A program made the translations under genes and the position numbers. DNA of 64,000 nucleotides. Origin: Ensifer sp. PDNC004. Lineage in GTDB: Bacteria > Pseudomonadota > Alphaproteobacteria > Rhizobiales > Rhizobiaceae. Positions 21,136 to 36,354 of this stretch are shown here, piece after piece. The DNA is taken from positions 1,116,001-1,180,000 of the forward strand of contig NZ_CP070352.1 of assembly GCF_016919405.1 (NCBI RefSeq), written 5' to 3'. Within the stretch, counting starts at the first letter, position 1. Each line of letters opens with the position of its first letter. The notes under the pieces were generated by a model. That model was not told the DNA's origin, made no database searches, and saw nothing but the letters and a program-made list of their open reading frames with translations.

Positions 21136-21142
21136 GATGCCG

Positions 21143-22018
21143 CTACCCCCAGACCGAGCCGGGGAGCGCGTCGAGCGGGATCTTCAGATAGCGCCGACCG
21201 TTGTCTTCCGGCGCCGGCAGCTCGCCGCCGCGCACGTTCACCTGCAGCGCGTGCAGGATGAGCTTCGGCATCGGCAGGGTGCGGTCGCGTGCCTCGCGCA
21301 GGCCGACGAAATCGGCCTCGGTCTTGCCGGCCACATGCGGGTTCGTGGATTTCTGCTCGGCGACCGTGCTTTCCCAGCGCGCCTCCCGGCCGCCGGGGCA
21401 ATAGTCGTGACCGGTGAAGAGCCGGGTTTCATCGGGCAGCGCCAGAATGGCCTGGATCGATCGCCAAAGATCGGCAGCGCTTCCACCCGGAAAATCGGCG
21501 CGGGCCGAGCCGCTGTCTGGCATGAACAGCGTGTCATGGATGAAGGCGGCATCGCCGATCACGTAAGAGATCGAGGCGAGCGTATGTCCCGGCGAATGCA
21601 TCACGTGGGCCTTGAGTTCGCCGATCTGGAACATGTCGCCGTCGGCAAACACCCGGTCCCATTGCGAGCCGTCGCAGGCGAAGTCCGGCCAGTTGTAGAT
21701 CGCCTTCCAGATCCGCTGCACGCCCTTCACATGTTCGCCGATACCAGTCGGCGCGCCGGTCTTCGCCTTGAGGTAGCGCGCGGCCGAGAAATGGTCGGCG
21801 TGCGGGTGGGTGTCGAGGATCCATTCGACGGAGAGGTTCTTGGCGGCGATATGGTCGAGGATCGCGTCGGCGTTGCGCGTGGCGGTCGAGCCCGATTTTT
21901 CGTCGAAGTCCAGCACCGGATCGATGATTGCGCATTTGCCGGTCGCCGGGTCGGCGACGACATATTGGATGCTGCCGGTGCGGGGATCGTAAAAGCCGGT
22001 CACATCGGGCTTATGCAT
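21143..22018 (-). CDS. blh: Persulfide dioxygenase-like metallo-beta-lactamase fold protein (Blh type)
   Basis: A 291-residue member of the ETHE1/Blh branch of the metallo-beta-lactamase fold. The motif THPHADHFSAARYL gives H71, H73, D75 and H76; SPGHT gives H145, and IHDTLF and FTGHDY complete the iron site. Known Blh/ETHE1 enzymes oxidise glutathione persulfide to sulfite and glutathione. The ATG at 22018 lies within the last codons of the class V gene (eight-base overlap), and the TauE exporter follows seven bases later. The chain of desulfurase, persulfide dioxygenase and sulfite exporter makes the function persuasive. No rhodanese domain is fused and no BigR regulator is adjacent. Confidence 0.87.
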   Translation of the reverse strand: MHKPDVTGFYDPRTGSIQYVVADPATGKCAIIDPVLDFDEKSGSTATRNADAILDHIAAKNLSVEWILDTHPHADHFSAARYLKAKTGAPTGIGEHVKGVQRIWKAIYNWPDFACDGSQWDRVFADGDMFQIGELKAHVMHSPGHTLASISYVIGDAAFIHDTLFMPDSGSARADFPGGSAADLWRSIQAILALPDETRLFTGHDYCPGGREARWESTVAEQKSTNPHVAGKTEADFVGLREARDRTLPMPKLILHALQVNVRGGELPAPEDNGRRYLKIPLDALPGSVWG

Positions 22019-23507
22019 AGGCGAGGGCCTCTTCAGCCGCGGCGCAGGGGAAGAAGATCGCGCGGGCGGGGTCAAAATCGTAGTCGGCTTCGAAGCTCGG
22101 CGCGTCGGCGGCCAGCTGCATGACGCAATCGAGGATGTATTTCACCTTGTCTTCCGAAAGCAGCACGCTGAAGTTCAGCCGGGTGAAGCCCGGCTTCTCG
22201 ATTTCCTCGCCGGCAAGGATCGCCTGGCGGATCTGTTCGGAGTGCGCGGCATCGATCGACAGCAGCCGGTGCACGTAAGGTCCGGCGCAGGCGCAGCCGC
22301 CGCGCGCCTGAATGCCGAAGCGGTCGCTCAGCATGCGGGTGACGAGCTGCTGGTGGACGTAGCCGCCCTTGCCGTTCTTGATGCGGAACGAAAAGATCGG
22401 CAGACGGTCCGGTTCCTGCAGGCCGAGCAGCTCCAGTTGCGGAATGGCCTTCCAGGCGGCAAACGCCTGCTCCGCCAGTTCGCGGTTGCGCCGCTCCATG
22501 TTCTCAAGGCCGATGGCGTGCTTGACGATAAAGGCGAGCGCCGCCCGGATGTCGCCGACGACATTCGGCGTTCCGGCCTCTTCGCGGGCTTCGATGTTGG
22601 CGCTGTAGTCGTGCGTATCCGGCGAAACGAATTTCACCGTGCCGCCGCCCGGCCAGGTCGGCTTGTCCGTCGTGACGCTGTCGCGGCGAACGATAAGGAT
22701 GCCGGAAGCGCCCGGCCCGCCGATGAACTTGTGCGGCGAAACGACGATGGCGTCGATTTCGGCACCGGACGCAGGGCACATGGCGATCGGAACATAGGGG
22801 CCGGCGCCGGCATAGTCCCAGATCATCTTCGCGCCGGCGGCCTTGACCATGCGGGTGATCGCGGCCACGTCGCTGGTGATGCCGGTGATGTTCGAGCCGG
22901 CCGAAAGCGTACAGACCATCAGCTCGGGCGAACCGGCATTCAGCGCTTCGCGAAGCTCCGTGAGGTCGGGTCCGCCCGCCGGGCACTCGGCGATCTCGAC
23001 GATCTCAGCGCCGCTTTCGCGCCAGGGCAGAATGTTGGAGTGGTGCTCGTAGGGGCCGATGATGACGCGGACGGTCTTGCCGGCGGCAACCGCGTCGGTA
23101 ACGCCGACGAGCTTGACCAGCCGGTTGATACCGGAGGTCGCACCGGAGCCGGTGAAGATCACGGCGTGGTCGGCCGTGGCGCCACAGAACTCACCGATCA
23201 GCGCCCGTGCTTCCCGCCGCATCCGGGTCATGAAGCCCCCGCAATAGGAGGCTTCCGTGTGGCTGTTGGCGTAGTAGGGCAGGACCTCTTCAAGCACGAA
23301 ATCCTCGATCACCCGCAACGCGCGCCCGGAGGCGACATAGTCGGCATAAACCAGTGCCTTCGTGCCGTAGGGGCCGGCGATCCGCGCCTTCGCTCCGACC
23401 AGATCGTCGCGAAGATCGGCGATAAGACCCGGCCGGTTGAGGGATTGGCGGAACCGGGCGAGCGGCGAGAGCGCCTCGCAGGGCTGGTGGACGGCGGGCA
23501 CGATCAT
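22011..23507 (-). CDS. Class V PLP-dependent enzyme, cysteine desulfurase-like
   Basis: A 498-residue fold-type I PLP enzyme of class V. The PLP lysine is K260 in SPHKFIGGPG, and EHHSNILPW near 154 is the class V cofactor block. A loop ARGGCACAGPY with C405 and C407 stands where cysteine desulfurases carry their persulfide-forming cysteine. It could remove sulfur from cysteine or a related amino acid. It is larger than IscS/SufS (about 400), having about 45 extra N-terminal residues and a C-terminal extension after about 470. It heads an operon with a persulfide dioxygenase and TauE exporter, divergent from an Lrp-type regulator. Selenocysteine lyase or another lyase reaction is an alternative. 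Confidence 0.82.
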   Translation of the reverse strand: MIVPAVHQPCEALSPLARFRQSLNRPGLIADLRDDLVGAKARIAGPYGTKALVYADYVASGRALRVIEDFVLEEVLPYYANSHTEASYCGGFMTRMRREARALIGEFCGATADHAVIFTGSGATSGINRLVKLVGVTDAVAAGKTVRVIIGPYEHHSNILPWRESGAEIVEIAECPAGGPDLTELREALNAGSPELMVCTLSAGSNITGITSDVAAITRMVKAAGAKMIWDYAGAGPYVPIAMCPASGAEIDAIVVSPHKFIGGPGASGILIVRRDSVTTDKPTWPGGGTVKFVSPDTHDYSANIEAREEAGTPNVVGDIRAALAFIVKHAIGLENMERRNRELAEQAFAAWKAIPQLELLGLQEPDRLPIFSFRIKNGKGGYVHQQLVTRMLSDRFGIQARGGCACAGPYVHRLLSIDAAHSEQIRQAILAGEEIEKPGFTRLNFSVLLSEDKVKYILDCVMQLAADAPSFEADYDFDPARAIFFPCAAAEEALAYA

Positions 23508-24121: not shown

Positions 24122-24814
24122 TTACATCACACCGAAGCGCTCGAACGCCTCGACGGTGCTCATGCCGGCCTCGATGGCGAGCCGCACCTTGTTTTCGGTC
24201 TCGGCCTTTTCCAGCGCCAAGGCGATCGCCTCGCGCCCCGCCTCTTTCGGGATGACGAGCACGCCGTCGCGGTCGCCGAAAAGGATGTCGCCCGGCCGAA
24301 TGCGGATGCCGCCGATCTCGATCGGGATATGGTAGTCGACGACCTTGCCGCGCGGTCCCTGGTCCTGGGCATAGGAGCCGTAGCAGAAGGTGGGGAAATC
24401 GAGCGCGAGAATGCCGGCGCTGTCGCGGCAATAGCCGTCGCAGATTGCGCCGGCCGCCTTCAGTTTCATGGCCCGCGTCGACATCAGTTCGCCCCAGACG
24501 GCGTATCGCGGCGACGAGCCGGAGCAGACATAGATCTCGTTTTCCTTCAGGCTGTCGAGCGCATGGAACATCAGGCCAAAGGGCTTGGCGCTGAATTCCG
24601 AATGACCGCCGGCCTCCGCCGTCGCGAAGAAATCCGCTTCAAGCACGGGCATCGCGCGGCCCACGGCGACCATGTCGTCGCGCAGCGCCTTGATCTGCGG
24701 CGGCAGGAACTGGTGCTGCAAGCCCATCGTGTCGAGAATGTCGCCAACCACGGCCGTGAACAGCCTGCTGCGCATGGCGGCAAAGAGTTGGGTATCGTCT
24801 TCAAAATGTTTCAT
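24122..24814 (-). CDS. RraA/HMG-aldolase-like protein
   Basis: A 230-residue member of the RraA-like fold, which includes 4-hydroxy-4-methyl-2-oxoglutarate (HMG/CHA) aldolases that release pyruvate, as well as the non-enzymatic RNase E inhibitor RraA. The class II aldolase motif D-x20-R-D appears here as E109-x20-R130-D131 (WGELMSTR ... CDGYCRD). Another block, FGDRDGVLVIPKEA, is typical. GAGGGAAG precedes the ATG. It starts eight bases after the uxuA stop, so it is in an operon with mannonate dehydratase. A role in cleaving the 2-keto-3-deoxy product, or another oxoacid, is plausible; the D-to-E change at the metal-water site is unusual. Confidence 0.75.
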   Translation of the reverse strand: MKHFEDDTQLFAAMRSRLFTAVVGDILDTMGLQHQFLPPQIKALRDDMVAVGRAMPVLEADFFATAEAGGHSEFSAKPFGLMFHALDSLKENEIYVCSGSSPRYAVWGELMSTRAMKLKAAGAICDGYCRDSAGILALDFPTFCYGSYAQDQGPRGKVVDYHIPIEIGGIRIRPGDILFGDRDGVLVIPKEAGREAIALALEKAETENKVRLAIEAGMSTVEAFERFGVM

Positions 24815-24822
24815 GTCTTCCC

Positions 24823-26022
24823 TCAAGCCTTATGCGCCATGGCGGTCGCGATGCCCTGCATGACGCCTCTGATTTCTGCGAGACCCTTCAAGCGCCCGAT
24901 CAGCGAATAGCCGGGGTTGATGCGCTCCTTGCCGATGTCGTCGGCAAGCAGATGCCCGTGGTCGGGCCGAAGCGGGATCTGCCAGTCGGTGCGCCCCTCG
25001 CGGACGCGGCGCTCCTGTTCCTCCATCAGCGCGAGGATCACCGCGGGCATGTCGCTCGATCCGCCAAGATGGTCGGCCTCGTAGAATGAGCCGTCCTCTT
25101 CGCGCCGGACGTTGCGCAGATGGGCGAAATGGATGCGCGGACCGAATTCGCGCACCATGGCCGGCAGGTCGTTATCCGCGCGCGTGCCGTAGGAGCCGGT
25201 GCAGAAAGTGATGCCGTTGGCGGGACTGTCGACGGCTGAGAGAATGCGCCTGACGTCGGCCGGCGTGGAGACGATGCGCGGTAGGCCATAGAGGGAAAAG
25301 GCGGGGTCGTCGGGATGAATGCAGAGCCGGATACCGACTTCTTCGGCGACCGGCACGATCTCCTTGAGGAAGCGCGCCAGGTTGTCATGCAGCGCGTCGG
25401 CGGTGACGCCGTCATATTCCGAGAGGGCAGCGAGGAAGCTTGCCCGGTTGAACTGGCGCTCGGTTGCCGGAAGGCCGGCGATCAGATTGCGTTCGATCCG
25501 GTCGATTTTCGCCTGGTCCATCTCATCGAAGCGCTGACGGGCGACGAAGATCTGCCGCTCGGAATAGCTGTCCTCGACGCGCGGACGCTTCAGCACGAAG
25601 AGATCGTAGGCGGCAAAGTCGACGGCGTCGAAGCGCAGTGCGTAGCCGCCGTTCGGCAGGGGCTGCACTAGCTCCGTGCGCGTCCAGTCGACCACCGGCA
25701 TGAAATTGTAGCAGACGATCTCGATGCCCGCCCGCGCCAGGGCGCGAAGCGTGTCCTTGTACCAGCCGATGTAGCGGGCACTGTCCGATGTCGCGAGCTT
25801 GATCGAGTTGTGCACCGGAATGCTCTCGACGACGCTCCAGCGCATGCCGGCCGCCTCGATCAGCGCCTTCTGCTTCAGGATCGCCTCATCGGACCAGGGC
25901 GAGCCGTCGTAGATATGGTGCAGCGCCGAGACGATCCCCGTGGCGCCTGCCTGCCGGATGTGGCTGAGCGGCACCGGATCGTTTGGCCCATACCAGCGAA
26001 AGCACTCTTCCATCATTCTCAT
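24823..26022 (-). CDS. uxuA: D-mannonate dehydratase
   Basis: A 399-residue TIM-barrel enzyme dehydrating D-mannonate to 2-keto-3-deoxy-D-gluconate in hexuronate breakdown. It follows UxuA throughout: [19 protein letters not shown] at the start, [15 protein letters not shown] near 110, [43 protein letters not shown] and [11 protein letters not shown] near the end. The metal-binding histidines, cysteine and aspartate are therefore in place. It is divergent from a GntR-FCD regulator and shares a spacer rich in TGGWCCAACAA repeats. ATG at 26022 or 26016. A second, divergent UxuA-like gene lies 5.5 kb away on the other strand, so the two probably act on different substrates. Confidence 0.93.
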
Positions 26023-26050: not shown

Positions 26051-26188
26051 TTGTTGGACCACGCTCGGCAATAATGTCCCATTGGTCCAACAATTCAAGC
26101 CTGAAATCGGCGAATTTGCGCGAAAATCAGTGATTCAGATGAGAGTATCAAATTTTCTCTTGACGGAAACTGTGATCTGGACCAACAA
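26051..26188. promoter_or_regulatory. Three copies of a GntR operator-like motif TGGWCCAACAA
   Basis: TTGTTGGACCA (26051-26061), its inverse TTGGTCCAACAA (26082-26093) and TGGACCAACAA (26178-26188) lie in the spacer between uxuA and the GntR gene. The common core TTGG-W-CCAA is a short palindrome and resembles the TTGGTATACCAA-type sites of UxuR/ExuR regulators. A partial copy TTGGTCC is at 27028-27034, before the transporter genes. The first pair flanks the uxuA side, the third lies just before the GntR start. Confidence 0.65.
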
Positions 26189-26214: not shown

Positions 26215-26958
26215 GTGAGCAGTTCGGTACGGGAAGATGCACTGTCGGGCGTGGAGGCCGTCGAGCCGGGGAAGACCTCGGCCGTCGATCGCCTTGTCGA
26301 GCAGATCCGCGACATGATCTCCGAGCGTGGCCTTGGTGTCGGCGACGCGTTGCCGACCGAGCGTGATCTTGGCGAGCAGTTCCAGGCGGGCCGCAACACC
26401 GTGCGCGAGGCGCTGCAGGTTCTGCGCGCCTATGGCATGGTCGAGACCCGCCCGAAGGTGGGTGCCGTCATCAGCGGCGGCCACGGCGAGGCGATCCGTC
26501 GCCTCTTTGCCTTCCACAACGGTATCTCGCCGGACTCGTTTCATGACCTGCAGGGCTTCCGTCGTATCATCGAGACCGGTGTCGGCGAACACATCATCCT
26601 GACGGCCAGCGACGCCGATTTCGACCGGCTGGATGCGATCAATGCCCGCATTCTGGAGGCCGAGAGCGTCGAGGCGGCCGCACAGTGCGACTATGAGTTC
26701 CACTCGGCGATCGTCGAACTCTCGGGCAACCGCACGACGCTTGCCGCCTATCACATGCTGCGTTCTGTGATCGAGGAGGTCATGCGTCTCGGCAAGGCCG
26801 AGCGCCCGGTGCATGCGGCGACCTTCGAGGCGCATGCCGAGATCATTCGGGCGCTGCGGGCGCGCGATCGCATCGCCTATGTCTACCTGATGAGCCGTCA
26901 TCTGGAGTTCGGCATTCGCTTCGTCGATGCCCCGCCGGGCGGCCTGCAGCCACGATAA
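26215..26958 (+). CDS. GntR-family regulator, FadR/FCD subfamily
   Basis: A 247-residue repressor. The N-terminal winged helix (TERDLGEQFQAGRNTVREAL, about residues 45-64) is followed by an all-helical FCD ligand domain with the metal-site pattern D..H (CDYEFHSAIVELSGNR) and further histidines near the end. The GTG start at 26215 has AGGGAGGAG upstream. It is divergent from uxuA/rraA-like genes and 112 bases ahead of a ribose-type ABC importer, so it probably controls both arms through the repeats in the spacer. UxuR/ExuR regulators that sense hexuronate derivatives belong to this subfamily; the real ligand is unknown. Confidence 0.9.
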   Translation: MSSSVREDALSGVEAVEPGKTSAVDRLVEQIRDMISERGLGVGDALPTERDLGEQFQAGRNTVREALQVLRAYGMVETRPKVGAVISGGHGEAIRRLFAFHNGISPDSFHDLQGFRRIIETGVGEHIILTASDADFDRLDAINARILEAESVEAAAQCDYEFHSAIVELSGNRTTLAAYHMLRSVIEEVMRLGKAERPVHAATFEAHAEIIRALRARDRIAYVYLMSRHLEFGIRFVDAPPGGLQPR

Positions 26959-27070: not shown

Positions 27071-28030
27071 ATGAGCAACATGAAACGTCTGGCGCTTGCC
27101 GCACTTCTTGCCACCGTCAGCTTCGCGCCGGGTGCGGCCTTTGCCGGCGGCAAGGCGATCGCCGGCATCGTCTTCCAGCAGGACCAGTATTTCCGCGGCA
27201 TCCAGATCGGCATGGAAAAGGCGGCGGAAGCCGCCGGTGACGAGCTTCTGGCCGGCAACAGCGACAGCAAGCTGGAGAAGGAAGCGCAGCTGATCGACAC
27301 CTACATCGCCCGCGGCGTGAACTCGATCGTCGTCGCTCCGCTTTCCGCCGATGCCTCGGTGCCGGCGCTGAAGAAGGCACGTGACGCCGGCATCACCGTC
27401 GTCACCTACGGAACCTCGGCCAATGGCGACGTCGCCCAGGCAACGGTGACAAGCTCGGACCGCGATATCGGCATCGGCACCGGCAAGGCCGCGACCGATT
27501 TCCTGAAGACGCTCGGCAACGGCGGCAAGGTCAAGATCGGCACGCTCGCCTTCAAGGCACTGCTGCCCGAACAGTCGAACGCCCGCGTCGACGGGTTCCT
27601 GAGCGTCGTCAACGATCAGGTCGACATCGTCGCCCAACAGGATGCCTGGCTCGCCGAAAAGGCGCTCGCCGTCGCCAGTGACATGCTGACGGCCAATCCC
27701 GATATCCAGGTGATCTATGCGGCCAACGAAGGCGGCACGATCGGTGCGGTCCAGGCGGTGAAGAAGGCTGGTCTTGAAGGCAAGGTCTTCGTTTTCGGCA
27801 CCGACGGTTCCGAGCAGCTCGCCAACATGCTGCTCAATTCCGACAACGTGCTGCAGGCAACGACGGCGCAGCAGCCGCTCGAGGTCGGCAAGCAGGCGAT
27901 CGAAGCGGCGCAGAACCTGCTCGACGGCAAGAAGATCGAGACCAAGGTCAACGTGCCGGTGCTGCCTCTGACCCGCGCCGATACGCAGGCCGTCGCCGCC
28001 TACAAGGAAGGCCTGAAGGCGCTGAAGTGA
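27071..28030 (+). CDS. Ribose-type (CUT2) sugar ABC transporter periplasmic binding protein
   Basis: A 319-residue exported binding protein: signal peptide MSNMKRLALAALLATVSFAPGAAFA, then a two-lobed periplasmic-binding fold of the RbsB/XylF type (VFQQDQYFRGIQIGMEKAA; GVNSIVVAPLSADASVPAL; IYAANEGGTIGAVQAV). TGGGAGGAG precedes ATG 27071. It is followed by its ATPase and permease, and precedes a set of sugar-acid enzymes, so it should deliver a sugar or sugar acid. Closest in type to ribose/xylose/galactose-family proteins; ligand not predictable. Confidence 0.88.
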   Translation: MSNMKRLALAALLATVSFAPGAAFAGGKAIAGIVFQQDQYFRGIQIGMEKAAEAAGDELLAGNSDSKLEKEAQLIDTYIARGVNSIVVAPLSADASVPALKKARDAGITVVTYGTSANGDVAQATVTSSDRDIGIGTGKAATDFLKTLGNGGKVKIGTLAFKALLPEQSNARVDGFLSVVNDQVDIVAQQDAWLAEKALAVASDMLTANPDIQVIYAANEGGTIGAVQAVKKAGLEGKVFVFGTDGSEQLANMLLNSDNVLQATTAQQPLEVGKQAIEAAQNLLDGKKIETKVNVPVLPLTRADTQAVAAYKEGLKALK

Positions 28031-28048
28031 TTGGGTTCTGACGTGAGC

Positions 28049-28071
28049 CGAGCGGCGGGTCATCGCGCTCG
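28049..28071 (+). other. Intercistronic hairpin between binding protein and ATPase genes
   Basis: CGAGCG (28049-28054) pairs with CGCTCG (28066-28071) around an eleven-base loop. Short, no T-run. Position after the binding protein gene fits the common mRNA-stabilising role. Confidence 0.35.
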
Positions 28072-28104
28072 CCACTCCCTTGTCTTGCACAGCAGGAAAT
28101 CCGC

Positions 28105-29649
28105 ATGAGCTATCCGCAACCGAGTTCAGCCGCGTTGCAAGGGGTGCAGGGACGGCTGGACTTTCGGGCCGTAACCAAGCGTTACGGCCCGACTGTCGCC
28201 CTCTCTGAATTCACCCACAGCTTCGCACCCGGCCAGGTGCATGCCCTGATGGGCAAGAACGGCTCGGGCAAATCGACGCTCGTCAAGCTGCTCGCCGGCG
28301 TCACCGAGCCAACATCGGGCACGATCAGCGTCAATGGCGAGGATCGCCATTTCACTTCGCCGCACGACGCCTTTGCCGCCGGCATCGTCACCGTACACCA
28401 GGAGCTTTCGCTGGTGCCGGAGCTTTCCGTCGGCGAGAACATCTTTCTCGGCCGTCTGCCGCATCGGCGCCGGGCCGGCTTCAGCGTCGTCGACTGGACG
28501 GGCCTGCACAAACGCGCCGGCGAATTGCTTGCCGACATGGGGCTCGCAATCGACTCCCGCCAGCCGGTTTCGGCGCTCAGCGTCGGCCAGCAGCAGGTGG
28601 TGGAGATCGTCAAGGCGATGTCCTTTAACCCGTCGATCCTGCTCTTGGACGAGCCGACTTCGGCGCTGGCGTCGCGCGAGGTCAAGCAGCTCTTCACCCT
28701 GATCGAGCGGCTGCGCGCCCGCGGCGTGACGATGATCTACATCACCCACCGCATGAGCGAGCTTTTCGAGATCGCCGACACCTGCACGGTGATCCGCGAC
28801 GGCCACTATATCGGCGCGGTCGAGATGAAGGCGACGACGCCGTCGGCGATCGTCGGCATGATGTTCGGCGATGCCGCCCGTGCGACGCGGCCGCCACGGC
28901 GCACACTCGATCGCACCAGGCCGGTGCTCGAAGTGCGCGACCTTAGCCGCTCCGGGCATTTTCAGAATGTTTCTTTCGATCTCTATCCCGGCGAGATTCT
29001 CGGCATTGCCGGCCTGCTCGGCGCCGGGCGCACGGAACTGATGCGGGCGATCTTCGGCGCCGACCGGATCGATGGCGGTAGGGTCACATTCGACGGTCGT
29101 GACATGACCGGCGCGAGCCCCCGCGACATGCGCAAGGCGGGGCTCGGCTACACGCCGGAAAATCGCAAGGAGGTCGGCCTGGTGCAGTCGCTTTCGACCG
29201 CCGACAATCTCTGCATGGCGAGCCTCGGCCCGATCTCCAACAAGGGCTTCATCTCGCGCCGGCGCGAACAGCCGCATGTGCGCCGCCAGATCGCCGATCT
29301 GCACATCAAGTGCGGCGATCCGGAACTGCCGGTGTCGTCGCTGTCGGGCGGAAACCAGCAGAAGGTGGTGATCGGCAAGTGGCTGAACCGGCAGCCGTCG
29401 GTGATGTTCTTCGACGAGCCGAGCCGCGGCGTCGACGTTCAGGCCAAGCGCCAGATCTTCGACATCATCTGGCAAAAGGCCGCCGACGGCCTCGCCAGCA
29501 TCTTCGTTTCGACGGAGCTTGAGGAGGTGCTTGAGGTCGCCGACCGCATCCTCGTCATGCACCACGGCGCCGTTGTCGCCGAAGTGGATCCGACGAAAAC
29601 CGACCTGACCGAACTTTACGGCCTGTGCATGGAAGGGGCCAAGCAATGA
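28105..29649 (+). CDS. Ribose-type sugar ABC transporter ATPase (two fused nucleotide-binding domains)
   Basis: A 514-residue RbsA-like protein with two ATPase halves. The first has Walker A GKNGSGKSTLVK, LSVGQQQVVEIVKA and Walker B LLLDEPTSAL. The second has a degenerate Walker A (GLLGAGRTELMR), as usual for the family, with signature LSGGNQQKVVIGKWL and FFDEPSRGVD. It powers uptake with the single permease that follows; the ATGA overlap at 29646-29649 shows coupling. Part of the GntR-controlled sugar locus. Confidence 0.93.
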   Translation: MSYPQPSSAALQGVQGRLDFRAVTKRYGPTVALSEFTHSFAPGQVHALMGKNGSGKSTLVKLLAGVTEPTSGTISVNGEDRHFTSPHDAFAAGIVTVHQELSLVPELSVGENIFLGRLPHRRRAGFSVVDWTGLHKRAGELLADMGLAIDSRQPVSALSVGQQQVVEIVKAMSFNPSILLLDEPTSALASREVKQLFTLIERLRARGVTMIYITHRMSELFEIADTCTVIRDGHYIGAVEMKATTPSAIVGMMFGDAARATRPPRRTLDRTRPVLEVRDLSRSGHFQNVSFDLYPGEILGIAGLLGAGRTELMRAIFGADRIDGGRVTFDGRDMTGASPRDMRKAGLGYTPENRKEVGLVQSLSTADNLCMASLGPISNKGFISRRREQPHVRRQIADLHIKCGDPELPVSSLSGGNQQKVVIGKWLNRQPSVMFFDEPSRGVDVQAKRQIFDIIWQKAADGLASIFVSTELEEVLEVADRILVMHHGAVVAEVDPTKTDLTELYGLCMEGAKQ

Positions 29650-30638
29650 CACTCGTAAGCCAGACCACGGAAGGCGGCGGGCAGAACACCCCGCTCAAAT
29701 TCCTGAAAACCTACCCGATGGAGATCATCCTCGCCGCCTTGGTGATTTTCCTGATCTTCGTCGCACCGGGCTTTGCCTCCACCAGCAACGTCTTGAACGT
29801 GCTACGCACGGTCTCGATGCTCGGTATCATCGCCTTCGGCATGACGGCTGTGATCATCAGCGGCGAGATCGACCTTTCGGTCGGTGCGGGTGCTGCCCTT
29901 GCCGGCTGCATCGTCGCCTGGTTTGCCGATCGCTTCACCGATGTCTTCGGCGACTGGGGCGCGGTCACGGTAGGTTTTGCCGCGGCGTTGCTGCTCGGCT
30001 TCTCGCTCGGCTATCTCACCGGCCGCTTTCGGCAGTGGTTCAACGTGCCGACCTTCATCACCACGCTGGCGCTTTTCGCAGCGCTTCGCGGTGTCGCCAA
30101 TCTGATCACCGGCGGCTTCCCGATGTCGTCTTTCCCGCTCGGCTTCGATTTCCTCGGCGGCGGTTACCTCTTCGGCATCCCGTTCCCGGTCTATATCTTC
30201 GCGCTGACCTTTGCGGCCATGCACTTCCTGATGAAGTACACGAGCTTCGGCCGCGAGGTTTACGCGGTCGGCGGCAACATGGAAGCGGCCCGCCTTTCCG
30301 GCATCGACATCTGGAAGGTGAAGGCGCTGACGCTGGGCCTGACGGGCGCTCTCACCGCCGTCTCCGGCACGCTGATCGCCTCGCAGATCGGGGCCGGCAC
30401 CGGGACGACGGCGACCGGCATGGAGCTCGACGTGATTGCGGCCGTGATCATCGGTGGCACCTCGCTCTTCGGCGGCAAGGGCCGCATCTGGGGCACGCTG
30501 ATCGGGGTGCTGTTCCTTGGCTGCATCTCCAACGGCATGACGCTGATGAATGTCAGCGAATACTGGCAATACGTCGTGCGCGGCGGGATCATCCTCGGCG
30601 CCGTGCTCCTGAACCAGGTTCTGGAACGGGTGCGCTGA
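29646..30638 (+). CDS. Ribose-type sugar ABC transporter permease
   Basis: A 330-residue permease of the RbsC family with eight to ten helices. Family blocks: MTAVIISGEIDLSVGA near residue 75, GNMEAARLSGIDIWKVK near 218 and VIIGGTSLFGGKGRIWGT near 268. Starts at the ATG overlapping the ATPase stop. As usual for this class, one permease gene is enough and works as a homodimer. Confidence 0.92.
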   Translation: MTLVSQTTEGGGQNTPLKFLKTYPMEIILAALVIFLIFVAPGFASTSNVLNVLRTVSMLGIIAFGMTAVIISGEIDLSVGAGAALAGCIVAWFADRFTDVFGDWGAVTVGFAAALLLGFSLGYLTGRFRQWFNVPTFITTLALFAALRGVANLITGGFPMSSFPLGFDFLGGGYLFGIPFPVYIFALTFAAMHFLMKYTSFGREVYAVGGNMEAARLSGIDIWKVKALTLGLTGALTAVSGTLIASQIGAGTGTTATGMELDVIAAVIIGGTSLFGGKGRIWGTLIGVLFLGCISNGMTLMNVSEYWQYVVRGGIILGAVLLNQVLERVR

Positions 30639-30745: not shown

Positions 30746-31531
30746 ATGACTGAATTCAAGGGAAAAGTGGCACTGGTCACCGGCACGTCGGGCATCGGGC
30801 TTGCCTCGGCAATCCGGCTCGCCTCGTCAGGCGCGACCGTGCTTGCCTGCGGCAACGACGTCGCCACCAACGAGATCTTCGACCGCATCGCGAAAGAGCG
30901 TGACCTGCCGATGTCGACCCGGCTGACCGACGTCTCGTTCGAGGCGGAAGTGGAAGCGGCCGTGCGCGAGGCGGCGCTGCGCCATGGCGGCCTCGACATC
31001 ATCGTCAATGCTGCGGCCGTCCATCCCTATGGCACGGTGCTCGATACCAGCGCCGAGACCTTTGCCCGCTGCCTCGCGGTCAACGTCGGCTCGATCTACC
31101 TCACCGGCCGCTTCGGCATTCCGGAAATGATGAAGCGCGGCGGCGGCGCGATCGTCAACATCTCCTCGGTGCAAGGCCATGCCTGCCAGCAGAATGTCGC
31201 GGCCTATGTCGCCTCCAAGGGCGCGATCCACGCGCTGACCCGCGCCATGGCGCTCGATCACGCGGCAGCAAAGGTCCGGGTCAATTCGGTGAGCCCCGGC
31301 TCGGTGCGCACGCCGCTGTTGGCGCTCGCTGCCCGCACCTATGGCGGCGAGGGCGTCAGCGAGGCGGAAGCCTTTGCCCGCTTCGGCGCTGCGCACCCGA
31401 TCGGCCGCATCGGCGAACCGGAGGAGGTGGCCGAACTGGTCGCCTATCTCGCCTCGGATCGCGCCGCCTTCGTCACCGGCTCGGACTTCCGCATCGACGG
31501 CGGCCTCACGGCCGGCATCGGCGTCAAATAA
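30746..31531 (+). CDS. SDR-family dehydrogenase, candidate sugar 1-dehydrogenase
   Basis: A 261-residue short-chain dehydrogenase. The cofactor loop TGTSGIGLASA near 13-23, the NAAAVHP strand, the catalytic serine in NISSVQG and the tyrosine/lysine pair in YVASKGAIHAL are intact; the C-terminal GSDFRIDGGLT closes the family pattern. GGAGACAATC precedes the ATG. It leads five further enzyme genes and fits the first oxidation of a cyclic aldose to its lactone, as in rhamnose or fucose dehydrogenases. A 2-keto acid or alcohol substrate cannot be ruled out. Confidence 0.85.
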   Translation: MTEFKGKVALVTGTSGIGLASAIRLASSGATVLACGNDVATNEIFDRIAKERDLPMSTRLTDVSFEAEVEAAVREAALRHGGLDIIVNAAAVHPYGTVLDTSAETFARCLAVNVGSIYLTGRFGIPEMMKRGGGAIVNISSVQGHACQQNVAAYVASKGAIHALTRAMALDHAAAKVRVNSVSPGSVRTPLLALAARTYGGEGVSEAEAFARFGAAHPIGRIGEPEEVAELVAYLASDRAAFVTGSDFRIDGGLTAGIGVK

Positions 31532-31550
31532 TCGGATAGGAAAAGACAAG

Positions 31551-32663
31551 ATGAAAATCGGCCTTGGGCTCTACCGGGAGCAACTCACCCCGGATAACTT
31601 TCAGTTTGCCGTGCAGGCGGGGGCGACCCATGTCGTCGCGCATCTCACCAACTATTTCGCCGGCAAGGATCCGAAGATCGACAGCGGCGATCAGGGCGGC
31701 TGGGGCGATTGTTCCGGTGACCGGCTCTGGACTTACGAAGAGCTTTCGGCGCTGGTGAAGGACGTCAGGGCCGGCGGGCTGGAGGTTGCGGCGATCGAGA
31801 ACTTCTCGCCGCGCTTCTGGCATGACGTACTGCTCGACGGGCCTGAGCGCGCTCAGCAGATCGAGGGGCTGAAGCAGCTCATTCGCGACGCCGGCCGCGC
31901 CGGGATTCCCTGCATCGGCTACAATTTCTCGCTCGCCGGTGTCTATGGCTGGACCCGTGGTCCTTATGCTCGCGGTGGCGCCGAATCCGTCGGCTTCGGC
32001 GTCGAAAACAGCATCGCGCCAAGCCCGGATGCACCGATCCCCGACGGCATGATCTGGAACATGCGCTATCGTCGCGGCGTCGCCGGCGCTGCCTCCGTTT
32101 CCGTCAGCTCGGCGGAGCTCTGGGAGCGCCTCGGCCACTTCCTGAAGGAGGTCGTGCCGGTCGCCGAAGAGGCGGGTGTCGTGCTTGGCGCTCACCCTGA
32201 TGATCCGCCGGCCGAGGAACTGCGCGGCACCGCGCGGCTCGTCAACCGGCCGGAGAAGTACGATCGGCTGATGTCGATCGTCGACTCGCCCTCGAACGGG
32301 CTAGAACTCTGCCTCGGCTCGCTCCAGGAAATGCCGGGCGGCGACATCTACGAGCATGTCCGCCGCTTCGCCCGCTCCGGCCGCATCGGCTACATCCACT
32401 TCCGCAACGTGCGCGGAAAGATGCCGCGTTATGTCGAGACCTTCGTCGACGAGGGCGATATCGACATGGCGGAGATCATCCGCATCCTGCGCGACGAGAA
32501 CTATCAGGGCGTGATGATCCCCGACCATACGCCGGCCATGACCTGTGGCGCCTCCTGGCACGCTGGCAAAGCTTTCGCGCTCGGCTACATGAAGGCGCTG
32601 GTGCAGAATGCCGAGGCGCTCGGCCCGTCGCGGTCGATCCCGACAAGCATCGCAGCGGAATAG
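31551..32663 (+). CDS. Divergent mannonate dehydratase (UxuA)-like enzyme
   Basis: A 370-residue TIM-barrel protein related to UxuA but clearly different from the one at 24.8-26.0 kb. It begins KIGLGLYREQLTPDNFQFA rather than the FRWYGPNDP of true UxuA. The metal-site blocks are recognisable: GAHPDDPPAEELRG, CLGSLQEMPGGD (true UxuA has CTGSYG), HFRNVRGKMP, DEGDIDM and MIPDHTPAMTCG. It should dehydrate an aldonate to a 2-keto-3-deoxy acid. Its place between an SDR and a lactonase suggests it takes the dehydratase step of an oxidative sugar route. Substrate is probably not D-mannonate. Confidence 0.82.
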   Translation: MKIGLGLYREQLTPDNFQFAVQAGATHVVAHLTNYFAGKDPKIDSGDQGGWGDCSGDRLWTYEELSALVKDVRAGGLEVAAIENFSPRFWHDVLLDGPERAQQIEGLKQLIRDAGRAGIPCIGYNFSLAGVYGWTRGPYARGGAESVGFGVENSIAPSPDAPIPDGMIWNMRYRRGVAGAASVSVSSAELWERLGHFLKEVVPVAEEAGVVLGAHPDDPPAEELRGTARLVNRPEKYDRLMSIVDSPSNGLELCLGSLQEMPGGDIYEHVRRFARSGRIGYIHFRNVRGKMPRYVETFVDEGDIDMAEIIRILRDENYQGVMIPDHTPAMTCGASWHAGKAFALGYMKALVQNAEALGPSRSIPTSIAAE

Positions 32664-32672
32664 GAGGTGGCG

Positions 32673-33566
32673 ATGGCCCGTGAGCTTATCTGCGTCGCGC
32701 CTGTCGGTGACCGCTGCGGAGAGGGTGCCGTCTGGTCGGCGGACGAGGCGGCGCTCTACTGGACCGACATCAACCGGTTTCTGATCCATCGCTATGACGA
32801 GGCAACGCGAGCGGTCCGGACGTGGCTGTTCGACGAGCCAGTGGTGGCGATCTCGCTGACCCGTGAAGACGGACGGCTGCTGGTCGCCCTCGGTTCGAAG
32901 CTCATCTGGTGGTGGCCCGAAACCGACCGGCAGGAGGATCACGGCTTCGTCCTGCCCGGTTCGCCACGGGTTCGGCTGAATGACGGCCGCGCCGATCCAG
33001 TCGGAAATTTCTGGGTCGGCTCGATGAAGAACAATGTCCTTCCCGATGGCCAGCTTGGAGACGTCGCGCCGGGCGAGGGTATCCTCTACCGGATCGCGCC
33101 CGATGGTGCCGTCACCGAATGGCGGCGAGGCCTCGGCATTTCCAACACGCTGTGCTGGAGCCCGGATCGAACCACTTTCTATTTCGGCGATACGCTGGCC
33201 AACGAGATCTATGCCTTCGATTATGATGCAAGGGCTGGAGCGATCTCCGGCGAACGATACTTCTTCACCGGTTTCGGCCGCGGCGCGCCCGACGGTTCGG
33301 CGATCGACAGCAATGGGTTCCTCTGGAACTGCCGTTATGGCGGTGGCTGCATCGCGCGCATAGCGCCCGATGGGAGCCTTGCCGAGGCGATCGACATGCC
33401 GGTCACCAACATCACCACTTGCACCTTCGGCGGCGCAGACTTGAAGACGCTCTACATCACCACGGCCGGGGGAGGGCCAGCCGAGCGCCTTGCTGGCAGC
33501 CTCTATGCCATGCGTGTCGAAGTCCCGGGCATGCCGGAAAATCGGTTTGGGGTGGCAAGCCGGTGA
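32673..33566 (+). CDS. SMP-30/gluconolactonase-family lactonase
   Basis: A 297-residue six-bladed beta-propeller hydrolase. The metal ligands of the family can be seen: E in GEGAVWSADE (about residue 17), N in RLNDGRADPVGNFWVG, N in GISNTLCWSPD, and D in APDGSAIDSNGFLWN. It would open an aldonolactone made by the SDR. AGGAGG lies five bases before ATG 32673, which decides the start over the GTG six bases upstream. Its stop overlaps the next start in a GTGA junction. Confidence 0.9.
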   Translation: MARELICVAPVGDRCGEGAVWSADEAALYWTDINRFLIHRYDEATRAVRTWLFDEPVVAISLTREDGRLLVALGSKLIWWWPETDRQEDHGFVLPGSPRVRLNDGRADPVGNFWVGSMKNNVLPDGQLGDVAPGEGILYRIAPDGAVTEWRRGLGISNTLCWSPDRTTFYFGDTLANEIYAFDYDARAGAISGERYFFTGFGRGAPDGSAIDSNGFLWNCRYGGGCIARIAPDGSLAEAIDMPVTNITTCTFGGADLKTLYITTAGGGPAERLAGSLYAMRVEVPGMPENRFGVASR

Positions 33567-34585
33567 GCGCGGAGACGACACGGCGCGCCCTTGCCTGGGC
33601 GCATGGCTGCCTCACGGTGCAGTCGCTCGGCGGCATGCTCGGCCCGGTGCTGTTCCTGCTGCCGGATGGACGCCAGGTCAGCCCCTTGCATGTGGCGCCA
33701 TGGGGCAACAACCCCGAGCGGGAGACGCTGCCGGAAATCCTGAGGGAGTTGCGTGGTGAGTGGCCGTGTGTGCCTTTCGGCAGCGACACGGACCGCACGC
33801 TTCCCGCAGGCTGGCCCGTAGACGGTGAGAGTTTTGCGGGCGCCGACGTGCCGCATGGCCAAAGCTCCAACGTCCATTGGGACTGGGGCGCCTGCGACGA
33901 CCGTCAGATCACCATGGAATGCCAATATCCGGAGACCCATCCGATCCGCCTGCTGCGGCGGCGGATCGTGCCGGATCCCAATGCGGCGGCTGTCGACCTC
34001 ACCTTGGAAATCGAGGCTCGGCGTCCGTGCCGCCTGCCGATCGGCCTGCATCCGACGTTCCGGCTCTCGACCCGCCCCGGTTCGGTAGCCATCGAACCCG
34101 GTGCTTATGACCAAGTCTGGAGCTTTCCCGGCGATGTCGAACCGGGCGCGGCTCTGTTTTCGCCCAACCGGCAGTGGTCGTCGCTCGGTAAGGTCGATAC
34201 GCGTGGCGATGCGAGCATCGACGCATCGCAGGTGCCGCTTGTCGAAGAGACCGAGGACCTGCTGCAGCTCTCCGGTATCGATGGCAGCTTGGTGCTCCAC
34301 TATCGCGACGAGGGTTTTCGCGCGCGGCTTGCCTGGCAGAAGGAACATTTTCCGAGCCTTCTGCTCTGGTTCAGCAACCGCGGACGCAAGGCCTATCCCT
34401 GGAACGGGCGACATGTGGCGCTTGGTGTCGAGCCGATAGCTTCCGCCTTCGATCTCGGACCGGCGGTCTCCACAGGCGACAATCCCATCGCGGCATCCGG
34501 CGTTGCAACGGCGATTGCCTTCGAACCCGATCAGACTTTCACCACCCGCTATCGGCTGTCCGTCGAGGCCGCTCCGATCGGCTGA
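33563..34585 (+). CDS. Aldose 1-epimerase-like (mutarotase fold) protein
   Basis: A 340-residue galactose-mutarotase-like beta-sandwich protein. Clues are the N-terminal GGMLGPVLFLLPDGRQVSPLHVAPWG, the middle PIGLHPTFRLSTRPG, and a C-terminal block GVEPIASAFDLGP. The expected catalytic histidine and glutamate may be the LHPTF histidine and the VEP glutamate. It would interconvert sugar anomers ahead of the dehydrogenase. Starts GTG 33563, overlapping the lactonase stop, so it is translationally coupled. It is a divergent family member; another carbohydrate-binding role is possible. Confidence 0.72.
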   Translation: MSAETTRRALAWAHGCLTVQSLGGMLGPVLFLLPDGRQVSPLHVAPWGNNPERETLPEILRELRGEWPCVPFGSDTDRTLPAGWPVDGESFAGADVPHGQSSNVHWDWGACDDRQITMECQYPETHPIRLLRRRIVPDPNAAAVDLTLEIEARRPCRLPIGLHPTFRLSTRPGSVAIEPGAYDQVWSFPGDVEPGAALFSPNRQWSSLGKVDTRGDASIDASQVPLVEETEDLLQLSGIDGSLVLHYRDEGFRARLAWQKEHFPSLLLWFSNRGRKAYPWNGRHVALGVEPIASAFDLGPAVSTGDNPIAASGVATAIAFEPDQTFTTRYRLSVEAAPIG

Positions 34586-34626
34586 ACGGCGTTCGCCCGG
34601 ACCTATACAACTGAAAGGCCAAGAGA

Positions 34627-35469
34627 ATGAAATTGCTGCGTCTCATCGTCGGCGGCTCCGCCGTGCCCTGCATCCTCGATGGCGAGGGCAAGGCGCGGGA
34701 CGTGTCTTCGCTCGTCCAGGACTTCACGGCGGAAACTTTGCCTGGTGTCTTGGCAGTGCTCTCCGGCGCCGATTTCGCGGCGCTCCCTTTGATGCCGGTG
34801 GTCGATGCGGACATCCTGCCGCCTGTCGCAAGGCCCGGTACGATCTGGTGCGTCGGCCTCAACTACTCCGACCATGCGGAAGAGGCGGGACTGCCAGTGC
34901 CGTCCGAACCGATCCTCTTCAACAAGGCGGCCGGCACCTATTGCGGTCCGAACGCGCCGCTTCTCCACTCCGAAAACATGTCGAAGCTCGACTGGGAGGT
35001 CGAGCTCGGCATCGTTATCGGCAAGCGCGCACTCGGTATTTCTCGTGACGCTGCCATGGACCATGTCTTCGGCTATACGGTCGTCAACGATGTCTCCGAA
35101 CGGGCCTGGCAGATGGAGCGCGGCGGGCAATGGGTGAAGGGCAAGAGCTTCCCGAACTTCTGCCCGACGGGCCCCTGGCTCGTGACGAAGGACGAGGTGC
35201 CGGACCCGCAGGCGCTGTCCATGTGGCTCGACGTCAACGGCGAGCGCATGCAGGCCGGCACGACCGCCCGCATGATCTTCGATGTCGCGACCATCGTCTC
35301 CTACATGAGCGAGTTCTGCGTGCTGGAGCCCGGCGATCTCATCTGCACTGGCACCCCGCCGGGCGTCGGCATGGGCAAAAAACCGCCGCGCTACCTGAAG
35401 CCCGGTGATGTGGTGGAACTTGGTATCGATGGCCTCGGCCGCCAGCGGCAGGTCGTTCAATCCCTCTAG
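34627..35469 (+). CDS. Fumarylacetoacetate hydrolase (FAH)-family protein
   Basis: A 280-residue C-C bond hydrolase. The metal ligands are E124 and E126 (LDWEVELGIVIG) and D155 (VVNDVSERA), with the lysines of QWVKGKSFPNFCPTGP near 171-173 positioned for substrate. FAH enzymes cleave beta-diketo acids such as 2,4-diketo-3-deoxyaldonates to pyruvate and a hydroxy acid. The next gene is a BDH2-like SDR that could make such a diketone. This pair is a hallmark of the diketo-hydrolase branch of L-fucose and L-rhamnose routes. Forty-one bases separate it from the epimerase gene. Confidence 0.87.
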   Translation: MKLLRLIVGGSAVPCILDGEGKARDVSSLVQDFTAETLPGVLAVLSGADFAALPLMPVVDADILPPVARPGTIWCVGLNYSDHAEEAGLPVPSEPILFNKAAGTYCGPNAPLLHSENMSKLDWEVELGIVIGKRALGISRDAAMDHVFGYTVVNDVSERAWQMERGGQWVKGKSFPNFCPTGPWLVTKDEVPDPQALSMWLDVNGERMQAGTTARMIFDVATIVSYMSEFCVLEPGDLICTGTPPGVGMGKKPPRYLKPGDVVELGIDGLGRQRQVVQSL

Positions 35470-35489
35470 ACATGCGGAAGGATTTCACC

Positions 35490-36239
35490 ATGAAGGAAAA
35501 GTCGGGACGATTGGCCGGGCGCATTGCCGTGGTCACGGCCGCCGGCCAGGGCATCGGCCGCGCCGTCGCCGAACGGCTGATGGCCGACGGTGCCGAGGTC
35601 CACGCCAGCGACATCAATGCCGAGCTGCTCGCCACCCTCGACGGTGCTGCGACGACGCGGCTCGATGCGACGGATCACGGGGCCGTCAGCGCCTATTTCG
35701 AAGGCTTCGATCGGGTCGATATCCTCGTGCATGCGGTCGGCTACGTGCATCAGGGCACGGTCGAGGAATGCTCGCCCGCCGATTGGCGCCGCTCGGTGAA
35801 CATCACGCTTGATAGCGCCTATAACGTCATTGCCGGCGCGATCCCGAAAATGAAGGCCAATAGCGGCAGCATCATCACCATCGGTTCGGTCGCTTCTTCG
35901 ATCAAGGGTTTCCCGCGGCGTGCCGCCTATGGTGCTGCCAAGGGTGGTGTTATCGGTCTGACCAAGGCAGTGGCCGCCGACTATGTATCCCAGGGCATCC
36001 GCTGCAACTCGGTCTGCCCCGGAACGGTGGCTTCGCCTTCCCTGGAGGAGCGCATCGGCGAACTCGGTGAAAAGCTTGGAAGCCGGGATGAGGCCTATCG
36101 ATCCTTCATCGGTCGGCAACCGGCCGGGCGTTTCGGCACGGTCGAGGAGGTCGCCGCCATCTGCGCCTTCCTCGCCTCGGACGAGGCGGCCTTCATTACT
36201 GGCCAGGCCATCAACATCGACGGCGGCATCACGATCTGA
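35490..36239 (+). CDS. SDR-family dehydrogenase, 2-keto-3-deoxyaldonate dehydrogenase-like
   Basis: A 249-residue short-chain dehydrogenase of the BDH2-like branch. Cofactor loop TAAGQGIGRAVAE, catalytic serine in TIGSVASSIKG and YGAAKGGVIGL, and the tell-tale RCNSVCPGTVASPSLEERI, shared by 2-keto-3-deoxy-L-fuconate/rhamnonate 4-dehydrogenases. It would oxidise the 4-hydroxyl of a 2-keto-3-deoxy acid to a 2,4-diketone. ATG 35490 has AAGGA upstream; an ATG at 35472 is the longer option. Last gene of the plus-strand unit, followed by a strong terminator. Confidence 0.87.
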   Translation: MKEKSGRLAGRIAVVTAAGQGIGRAVAERLMADGAEVHASDINAELLATLDGAATTRLDATDHGAVSAYFEGFDRVDILVHAVGYVHQGTVEECSPADWRRSVNITLDSAYNVIAGAIPKMKANSGSIITIGSVASSIKGFPRRAAYGAAKGGVIGLTKAVAADYVSQGIRCNSVCPGTVASPSLEERIGELGEKLGSRDEAYRSFIGRQPAGRFGTVEEVAAICAFLASDEAAFITGQAINIDGGITI

Positions 36240-36268
36240 GACCTCGTCTTCCCAAGGCCGGAAATGCA

Positions 36269-36299
36269 AAACACCTCCGGATGCGCTCCGGAGGTGTTT
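36269..36299. terminator. Strong terminator hairpin at end of sugar locus
   Basis: AAACACCTCCGGA (36269-36281) pairs perfectly with TCCGGAGGTGTTT (36287-36299): 13 base pairs and a five-base loop, then GTTTCTC. It lies between the SDR and the convergent leuB gene and, being flanked by A and T on both sides, can serve both strands. Confidence 0.88.
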
Positions 36300-36354
36300 G
36301 TTTCTCAAGTTCCCGCTGGCGTCGGTGGGACGCCCGCATCTGATCTGTCGTCGT

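Follow-up and report, generated by a model that had tools for sequence, protein, structure and literature searches.

A divergent catabolic locus with two UxuA-family proteins in Ensifer sp. PDNC004, a candidate oxidative route for a D-manno aldohexose

Which sugar is degraded, and by which route, when a ribose-type importer, oxidative enzymes and two members of the UxuA family are encoded side by side? This question is raised by a locus of Ensifer sp. PDNC004 found in a window of 64,000 nucleotides (NZ_CP070352.1, positions 1,116,001 to 1,180,000), which is the whole stretch of DNA that was analyzed. An initial annotation had proposed that six consecutive genes (30746-36239) encode a new sugar pathway in which a divergent UxuA-family protein, here called UXL, takes the dehydratase step. 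We find that the locus is a real catabolic divergon and that the six-gene run is only part of one set, most likely under joint control. With about even confidence, and judging from sequence comparison, we read this set as a GntR-controlled, non-phosphorylating oxidative route for an imported aldose, which most likely would be an aldohexose of the D-manno type, D-mannose being the first candidate.

The six genes lie in the order and on the single strand that had been described: two short-chain dehydrogenases/reductases (SDR1 first, SDR2 last) enclose UXL, an SMP-30-type lactonase, a mutarotase-like protein and an FAH-type hydrolase (Table 1). They are separated by spacers of 19, 3, -4, 41 and 2 bases and followed by a strong hairpin, and the ribose-type importer genes noted earlier do precede them (RbsB-, RbsA- and RbsC-type, 27071-30638, plus strand; the permease start was placed at 29646 because it overlaps the ATPase gene there by 4 bases). 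Five of the six have clear Pfam matches. The exception is the mutarotase-like protein, which has no match in Pfam or NCBIfam and a predicted structure of the aldose 1-epimerase, galactose mutarotase fold. On the other strand, a second arm encodes a true UxuA (UxuA1) and an RraA-like protein.

In the inter-arm spacer, the operator-like sequence TTGTTGGWCCA occurs three times within 138 bases, and one further exact copy is found in the 6.78-Mb genome. Since four matches genome-wide are obtained with the reversed control pattern as well, it is the clustering and not the copy number that counts as evidence. In 45 inter-arm spacers, a set that counts the window both as L002 and under its own name, the density of the core TGGNCCA is 7.8 per kb versus 0.23 per kb in the remainder of the loci, a 34-fold enrichment; it is absent from six of these spacers (L011, L012, L017, L019, L020 and L043). 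Because of the clustered sites and of the enrichment in the spacers of relatives, both arms most likely belong to one regulon, and the sites are putative binding sites of the GntR protein.

Gene content in relatives indicates which of these genes belong together. A scan of reference genomes with the UXL alignment confirmed 582 relatives, of which the best 80, all named loci, were compared; records very close to the genome of the window may be left out of this set. In 50 of them UXL is at least 65% identical (23 of the 50 are from Mesorhizobium), and 35 of these closer loci have 9 kb on both sides (full-flank relatives hereafter). Three tiers are seen. The core consists of GntR, SDR1, UXL, UxuA1 and RraA, the head of importer, lactonase and mutarotase, while SDR2 and FAH form a tail that is optional. 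GntR is present in 34 of the full-flank relatives, UxuA1 and SDR1 in 33 each, and RraA in 30 when a profile is used and in 28 when at least 45% identity is required. At this identity threshold, the window-type importer, like its ATPase ortholog, is present in 13, SMP-30 and mutarotase in 12 each, SDR2 in 3 and FAH in 2; without a threshold, some importer accompanies 33 of the 35. For all 50 closer loci the counts are SDR1 46, UxuA1 41, RraA 40 (profile), SMP-30 21, importer 21, mutarotase 19, SDR2 8 and FAH 6. When only the 15 full-flank loci outside Mesorhizobium are considered, they are GntR 14, UxuA1, SDR1 and importer 13 each, SMP-30 and mutarotase 12 each, RraA 11, SDR2 3 and FAH 2, and after collapse to 22 groups (cut contigs included), SDR1 18, RraA 16, SMP-30 15, UxuA1 14, mutarotase 13, SDR2 5 and FAH 3. 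UxuA1 is nearby in three of the 30 more distant loci (two at 45% identity). All six genes occur together in six of the 50 closer loci, five times (L003-L007) in identical order and strand and once (L020) with the strand reversed for SDR2, FAH and mutarotase. The run is thus kept together in some relatives and yet is not the conserved unit. With a core that reaches onto the other strand and with FAH and SDR2 rare, the six genes are rejected as the unit, and the proposal that they make up the pathway finds no support. Because the core holds a true UxuA and RraA, and FAH and SDR2 are mostly absent, UXL need not feed SDR2 and FAH.

UXL is as divergent from true UxuA as had been suggested. It scores under the UxuA cut-offs (TIGR00695, 110.7 versus 199.55 bits; NF003027, 151.3 versus 191). 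In the alignment, the position of the catalytic Tyr, which we take to be Tyr325 of the S. suis mannonate dehydratase, is Tyr in 48 of 48 UxuA-type rows and His in 73 of 73 UXL rows, and the His-Cys-His-Asp site (H215, C254, H283 and D325), whose equivalents presumably are the metal ligands, is invariant in both groups. Of the 80 loci, 72 passed a length filter and make up the 73 rows together with the window. In an unrooted tree made by a quick method, with a very long branch between the groups, the 48 UxuA-type rows (all three solved proteins included) split from the 73 UXL rows with a Shimodaira-Hasegawa-like approximate likelihood ratio (SH-aLRT) support of 100. The predicted structure of UXL, a moderate model with a mean predicted local distance difference test score (pLDDT) of 75.4 and several loops below 50, is nearest to 3ban, 1tz9 and 4eac. 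Sub-cut-off score, His for Tyr and separate tree group together rule out UXL as a true UxuA. It appears to be a co-conserved UxuA-fold metalloenzyme that would act on the same sugar acid as UxuA1 or on an epimeric one, either as a second dehydratase or as an isomerase. Its distribution is patchy, with 15 of 247 genomes of the host's family, own genome included, having a copy at E 1e-60 or better. Outside the family, the 80 loci extend to Phycisphaeraceae, Anaerolineae, Gemmatimonadaceae and Opitutales. A protein search matched 7723 of at least 7999 scored candidates, and those beyond the best 120 may include true UxuA proteins.

That UXL provides the dehydratase step of the route is no longer the natural assumption, given the second, true UxuA co-conserved at the locus. 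UxuA1 lies above the equivalog cut-off of TIGR00695 (Table 1), which would imply D-mannonate as its substrate. UxaC (PF02614), the usual uronate feeder, was not found in the own genome by a search that, as a control, was positive in 7 of 14 named genomes; the canonical hexuronate route is ruled out on this ground. Of the 80 loci, 58 (43 of the 49 with full flanks) encode another acid-sugar dehydratase at a distance of up to about 9.5 kb from UXL, and none was detected in 22, of which 16 have cut flanks. UXL and RraA occur without another detected dehydratase in L046, L047, L051, L053, L058, L074 and L082, only L051 and L082 having full flanks. No match to the three profiles for enolase-, IlvD/EDD- and UxaA-type dehydratases was found in the 50 closer loci, 15 of which have shorter flanks; one of the five rows of the IlvD profile (L098) was in the wrong frame, the other four members scoring at least 788 bits, and some enolase rows were also in the wrong frame. 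An enolase-superfamily protein is encoded in a part of the window that is unrelated to the locus (61235-61870, plus strand; PF13378, 173.7 bits). An enolase-type dehydratase as part of the locus is ruled out, the single match of this type within the window being about 25 kb away. For Route III-like routes, dehydratases outside the enolase type had been published before, namely those of the UxaA/GarD and IlvD/EDD types (PMC6336799, in the part available). Among the genes of the cluster, no alpha-ketoglutarate semialdehyde dehydrogenase, as expected for Route II, was seen.

Two uxuA-annotated genes of other bacteria are recorded here for comparison. Table 3 of PMC3973600, a source available in part, gives a 16.06-fold change between bacteroids and free-living cells for MCHK_0451 of Mesorhizobium huakuii. 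In Paenibacillus sp. B2 such a gene, a proposed hydratase, adjoins an RraA-type aldolase gene and shows increased expression in response to a lignin dimer, and the two may be another UxuA/RraA pair (PMC12673573, from the portion at hand).

SDR2 and FAH resemble the Route III pair, as had been claimed, and most likely would form a genuine Route III module. SDR2 was aligned with the L-2-keto-3-deoxyfuconate 4-dehydrogenase (8y11) and human BDH2 (2ag5). It has all four type 1 substrate residues (Arg148, Thr183, Arg192 and Arg214; pattern as given in the accessible part of PMC11199699) and Ile at the position of Trp252, the residue contacting the C6 methyl. The same part of that paper describes the residue at this position as hydrophobic, mostly Trp, Met, Phe or Leu (Ile is hydrophobic and outside those named), and lists D-2-keto-3-deoxygluconate (D-KDG) as a weak substrate of the L-2-keto-3-deoxyfuconate dehydrogenase. 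The motif DGGI is present in nine of the ten SDR2 matches among the 80 loci. FAH has as nearest solved structure 8gsr, a 2,4-diketo-3-deoxyrhamnonate hydrolase (286.4 bits), and is under the cut-off of NF053535, the L-2,4-diketo-3-deoxyrhamnonate hydrolase family (346 versus 500 bits). A second FAH/SDR pair in the own genome (L097; FAH 57-58% and SDR 48% identical to those of the window) lies beside enolase-type dehydratases and keeps Trp252. This second pair seems to belong to a canonical fucose-type cluster. Neither of the two enolase-type proteins there exceeds a listed NCBIfam cut-off, and, unlike the window locus, the cluster has no UxuA, UXL, RraA, SMP-30 or mutarotase match to the window proteins by blastp. 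Because Ile replaces Trp252 in the window while the SDR of L097 keeps Trp, the substrate of the window's pair is probably not a 6-deoxy acid.

In the route that we infer, the substrates, the order and direction of the steps and D-mannose as the sugar would be as follows. The aldose would be taken up by the importer and passed to the mutarotase, SDR1 would convert it to the lactone and SMP-30 the lactone to the aldonate, and UxuA1, as the main dehydratase, would turn D-mannonate into KDG. The conserved exit from KDG would be cleavage by the RraA aldolase to pyruvate and glyceraldehyde. In the closest relatives of the window and in a few further ones, a second exit would use SDR2 and FAH to give a 2,4-diketo acid and then pyruvate and glycerate. 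An oxidative, non-phosphorylating sugar route, as the initial annotation had it, is still the likeliest reading. The D-manno hexose is favored because a true UxuA1 is present without genomic UxaC, because SDR1 is kin to 3vtz and has the aldose dehydrogenase model as its second-best family, because SDR2 combines the type 1 pattern with Ile, and because of published parallels. The solved chain 3vtz, nearest to SDR1 (183.8 bits), was deposited as glucose 1-dehydrogenase, and we take it to be an aldohexose dehydrogenase of Thermoplasma volcanium. Some neighbors of UXL homologs are also in keeping with KDG and mannose. Two of the 80 loci, L017 and L019, have KdgK-like genes, which fall into one cluster; the L019 copy, when scanned, gave 258 bits (cut-off 400). 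The L053 operon includes a gene resembling D-mannose isomerase (372.8 bits versus a cut-off of 600), and L055 has one resembling glycerate 2-kinase (231.8 bits versus 550).

Several observations weigh against this mannose route. These fitting neighbors are rare and all under the model cut-offs. The second-best family of SDR1, NF005007 aldose dehydrogenase, is reached at 209.6 bits versus a cut-off of 341, and SDR1 has His where 3vtz has Glu, at what presumably is the mannose-reading position of AldT; 28 of the 48 SDR1 rows fall outside the motif pattern, so that the change from Glu to His is shown for the window protein alone. The importer binding protein matches solved ribose and allose binders and indicates no clear sugar. 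UXL would be superfluous in a linear mannose route. SMP-30 and mutarotase are near UXL in none of the 23 Mesorhizobium loci, where the window-type importer is found only in L035, the others having a different two-permease importer that is just 24-40% identical; because importer, lactonase and mutarotase are mostly absent near UXL in Mesorhizobium, the aldose-oxidation head is not universal. L013 keeps GntR, importer, SDR1, UXL and mutarotase, with neither UxuA1 nor RraA within full flanks. Finally, RraA-family proteins catalyze several reactions, one of them that of a dehydratase/decarboxylase (PMC8563752, as far as the available text goes).

The absence of UxaC can also be read in another way, in which UXL would be an isomerase or epimerase that makes the ketose or epimer which SDR1 turns into the acid of UxuA1, standing in for UxaC if the substrates are uronates. 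We consider this unlikely. It leaves the 22 loci without another dehydratase, 16 of them with cut flanks, to be explained, the RbsB-type importer, lactonase and mutarotase suit a neutral aldose better than a uronate, and the 25 best of the 227 families matching SDR1 include no model for a mannonate oxidoreductase.

About as improbable is the original idea that the six genes are one linear route for a sugar or deoxysugar, with UXL as the sole aldonate dehydratase feeding SDR2 and FAH. Gene order and tight spacing, the six relatives with all six genes (five in the same order and strand), the seven loci with UXL and RraA and no other detected dehydratase (two of them full-flank) and the preserved metal-site residues of UXL all speak for it. 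They are opposed by the true UxuA at the locus, co-conserved and with operator-like sites in common, by the low counts of FAH (6 of 50) and SDR2 (8 of 50) among UXL-bearing relatives, by the frequency of another acid-sugar dehydratase (58 of 80 loci, 43 of 49 full-flank), by the His of UXL at the putative catalytic Tyr, and by an SDR2 lacking the Trp that reads the C6 methyl. Very improbable is a 6-deoxyhexose of the D-manno type (D-rhamnose), which UxuA1 would convert to 2-keto-3-deoxy-D-rhamnonate and SDR2/FAH or RraA to pyruvate and lactate or lactaldehyde, since, although SDR2 and FAH are paralogous to the genome's fucose-type pair, Ile replaces Trp at the C6-methyl contact, the KdgK-like and glycerate-kinase-like neighbors, though rare, indicate a hexonate, and no such catabolic pathway was found in titles and abstract starts of the open-licence literature, among the matches listed.

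How does the proposed mannose route compare with known systems? The hexuronate pathway consists of UxaC, UxuB and UxuA. The locus shares with it a true UxuA and a GntR regulator, but the genome of the window lacks UxaC, and the locus has a sugar importer, a lactonase and a mutarotase. With the Route III L-fucose/L-rhamnose/pentose pathways (FucM, A, B, C, F, G; Herbaspirillum; PMC6336799 and PMC11199699, both available in part) it has in common the mutarotase, SDR, lactonase, 2-keto-3-deoxyaldonate 4-dehydrogenase and FAH hydrolase as well as the arginine pattern of SDR2. It differs by its two UxuA-family proteins and RraA-like protein, with no enolase-, IlvD- or UxaA-type dehydratase found there, by FAH and SDR2 being optional in relatives, and by the change of Trp252 to Ile. 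An SDR (AldT), a mannonate dehydratase (ManD) and a KDG aldolase form the proposed oxidative mannose scheme of Thermoplasma acidophilum (PMC6901390, in the part at hand). The pairing of an SDR with a mannonate dehydratase had thus been published before. An SDR akin to aldohexose dehydrogenase and a mannonate dehydratase in one phosphate-free locus are common to both; the window adds the importer, lactonase, mutarotase, second UxuA-like protein and Route III exit, has an RraA-like protein in place of KDG aldolase, and its SDR1 is under the aldose dehydrogenase cut-off (NF005007). A haloarchaeal cluster of Natronoglomus likewise groups two mannonate dehydratases with a sugar-dehydrogenase-like gene, RraA being named in the same figure legend, but it is archaeal and carries mannanases (PMC10963439, partly available). 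Because the locus lacks defining features of the L-fucose/L-rhamnose, hexuronate and Thermoplasma mannose pathways that were tested, we keep it apart from them, and UXL apart from UxuA, although the locus may function in the same way as the mannose route. No paper on the gene set as a whole was found by titles and abstract starts of the open-licence literature, among the matches listed, and the available part of PMC9007349 has nothing on this locus.

Table 1. Features of the divergon, with positions in the window and the basis of each assignment.
Feature	Position	Strand	Basis
RraA-like protein, candidate class II pyruvate aldolase	24122..24826	-	PF03737 112.5 bits; 4-base overlap with UxuA1
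UxuA1, D-mannonate dehydratase	24823..26022	-	TIGR00695 503 bits, cut-off 199.55; 467.6 bits to E. coli 4eac
Three operator-like sites TTGTTGGWCCA, inter-arm spacer	26051..26188 (starts 26051, 26083, 26178)		Exact-copy search
GntR-family (FCD) regulator	26215..26958	+	PF00392 and PF07729
Importer sugar-binding protein, RbsB-type	27071..28030	+	PF13407; solved ribose and allose binders match
Importer ATPase, RbsA-type	28105..29649	+	Translation alone
Importer permease, RbsC-type	29646..30638	+	Translation alone
SDR1, probable aldose 1-dehydrogenase	30746..31531	+	3vtz 183.8 bits; NF005007 209.6 bits, cut-off 341
UXL, UxuA-like metalloenzyme	31551..32663	+	PF03786 177.6 bits; TIGR00695 110.7 bits, under cut-off
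SMP-30/gluconolactonase-type lactonase	32667..33566	+	PF08450 265 bits; solved regucalcins and 7plb
Mutarotase-like protein, aldose 1-epimerase fold, GTG start	33563..34585	+	Predicted structure
FAH-type 2,4-diketo-3-deoxyaldonate hydrolase	34627..35469	+	8gsr 286.4 bits; NF053535 346 bits, cut-off 500
SDR2, 2-keto-3-deoxyaldonate 4-dehydrogenase, type 1 arginine pattern, Ile at Trp252 position	35472..36239	+	Alignment; pattern of PMC11199699 (part available)
Terminator hairpin, strong	36266..36301	+	Behind the six-gene run

Other genes were seen around the locus and its relatives. On the minus strand of the window (20353-23507), genes that by reading of the sequence are TauE/SafE-like, of the metallo-beta-lactamase fold and class V aminotransferase/desulfurase-like resemble a sulfur module of their own. 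Between UxuA1 and the two-permease importer, L025 (4979-6978) and the majority of the other Mesorhizobium loci have an IclR regulator together with a solute-binding-like protein that has no paired transporter. An enolase paralog and an APH-type kinase gene adjoin the conserved core in L015 (417-2722) and L018 (5415-7723; enolase copy TIGR01060, 478.7 bits), possibly for steps from glycerate to phosphoenolpyruvate, and an enolase-like gene is also in the cluster of L016. A PanB-like protein of the ketopantoate hydroxymethyltransferase family, possibly another C-C lyase, is encoded near the core in L023 (854-1939; this copy, when scanned, was under the cut-off), L020 and L078. UXL homologs of Opitutales, Opitutaceae, Phycisphaeraceae and Maritalea have NagB- and NagA-like genes nearby (L015:14340-16235, with both scanned copies under cut-off, L073, L077, L080 and L081). 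The Maritalea locus also holds, at L015:16201-21092, a tripartite ATP-independent periplasmic (TRAP) transporter, another UxuA, which shares 51% identity with UxuA1, and, by reading, a mannitol-dehydrogenase-type reductase; together they resemble a separate, adjoining hexuronate operon.

Tentatively, and with clearly less confidence than for the mannose route itself, UXL may found a broad family of sugar-acid metalloenzymes with His for the Tyr of UxuA. Its members would partner a lineage-dependent dehydratase (UxuA, enolase-type or UxaA/GarD-type) and the RraA aldolase in a modular oxidative route of the mannose type, to which the Route III exit would have been gained in the nearest relatives of the window. 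If the mannose reading is true, bacteria would have a phosphate-free route for mannose or a related hexose, a true UxuA would work outside hexuronate catabolism, and the Route III exit would be an optional add-on. The relatives of UXL are a large group labelled "mannonate dehydratase" in databases, and their role would then become assayable.

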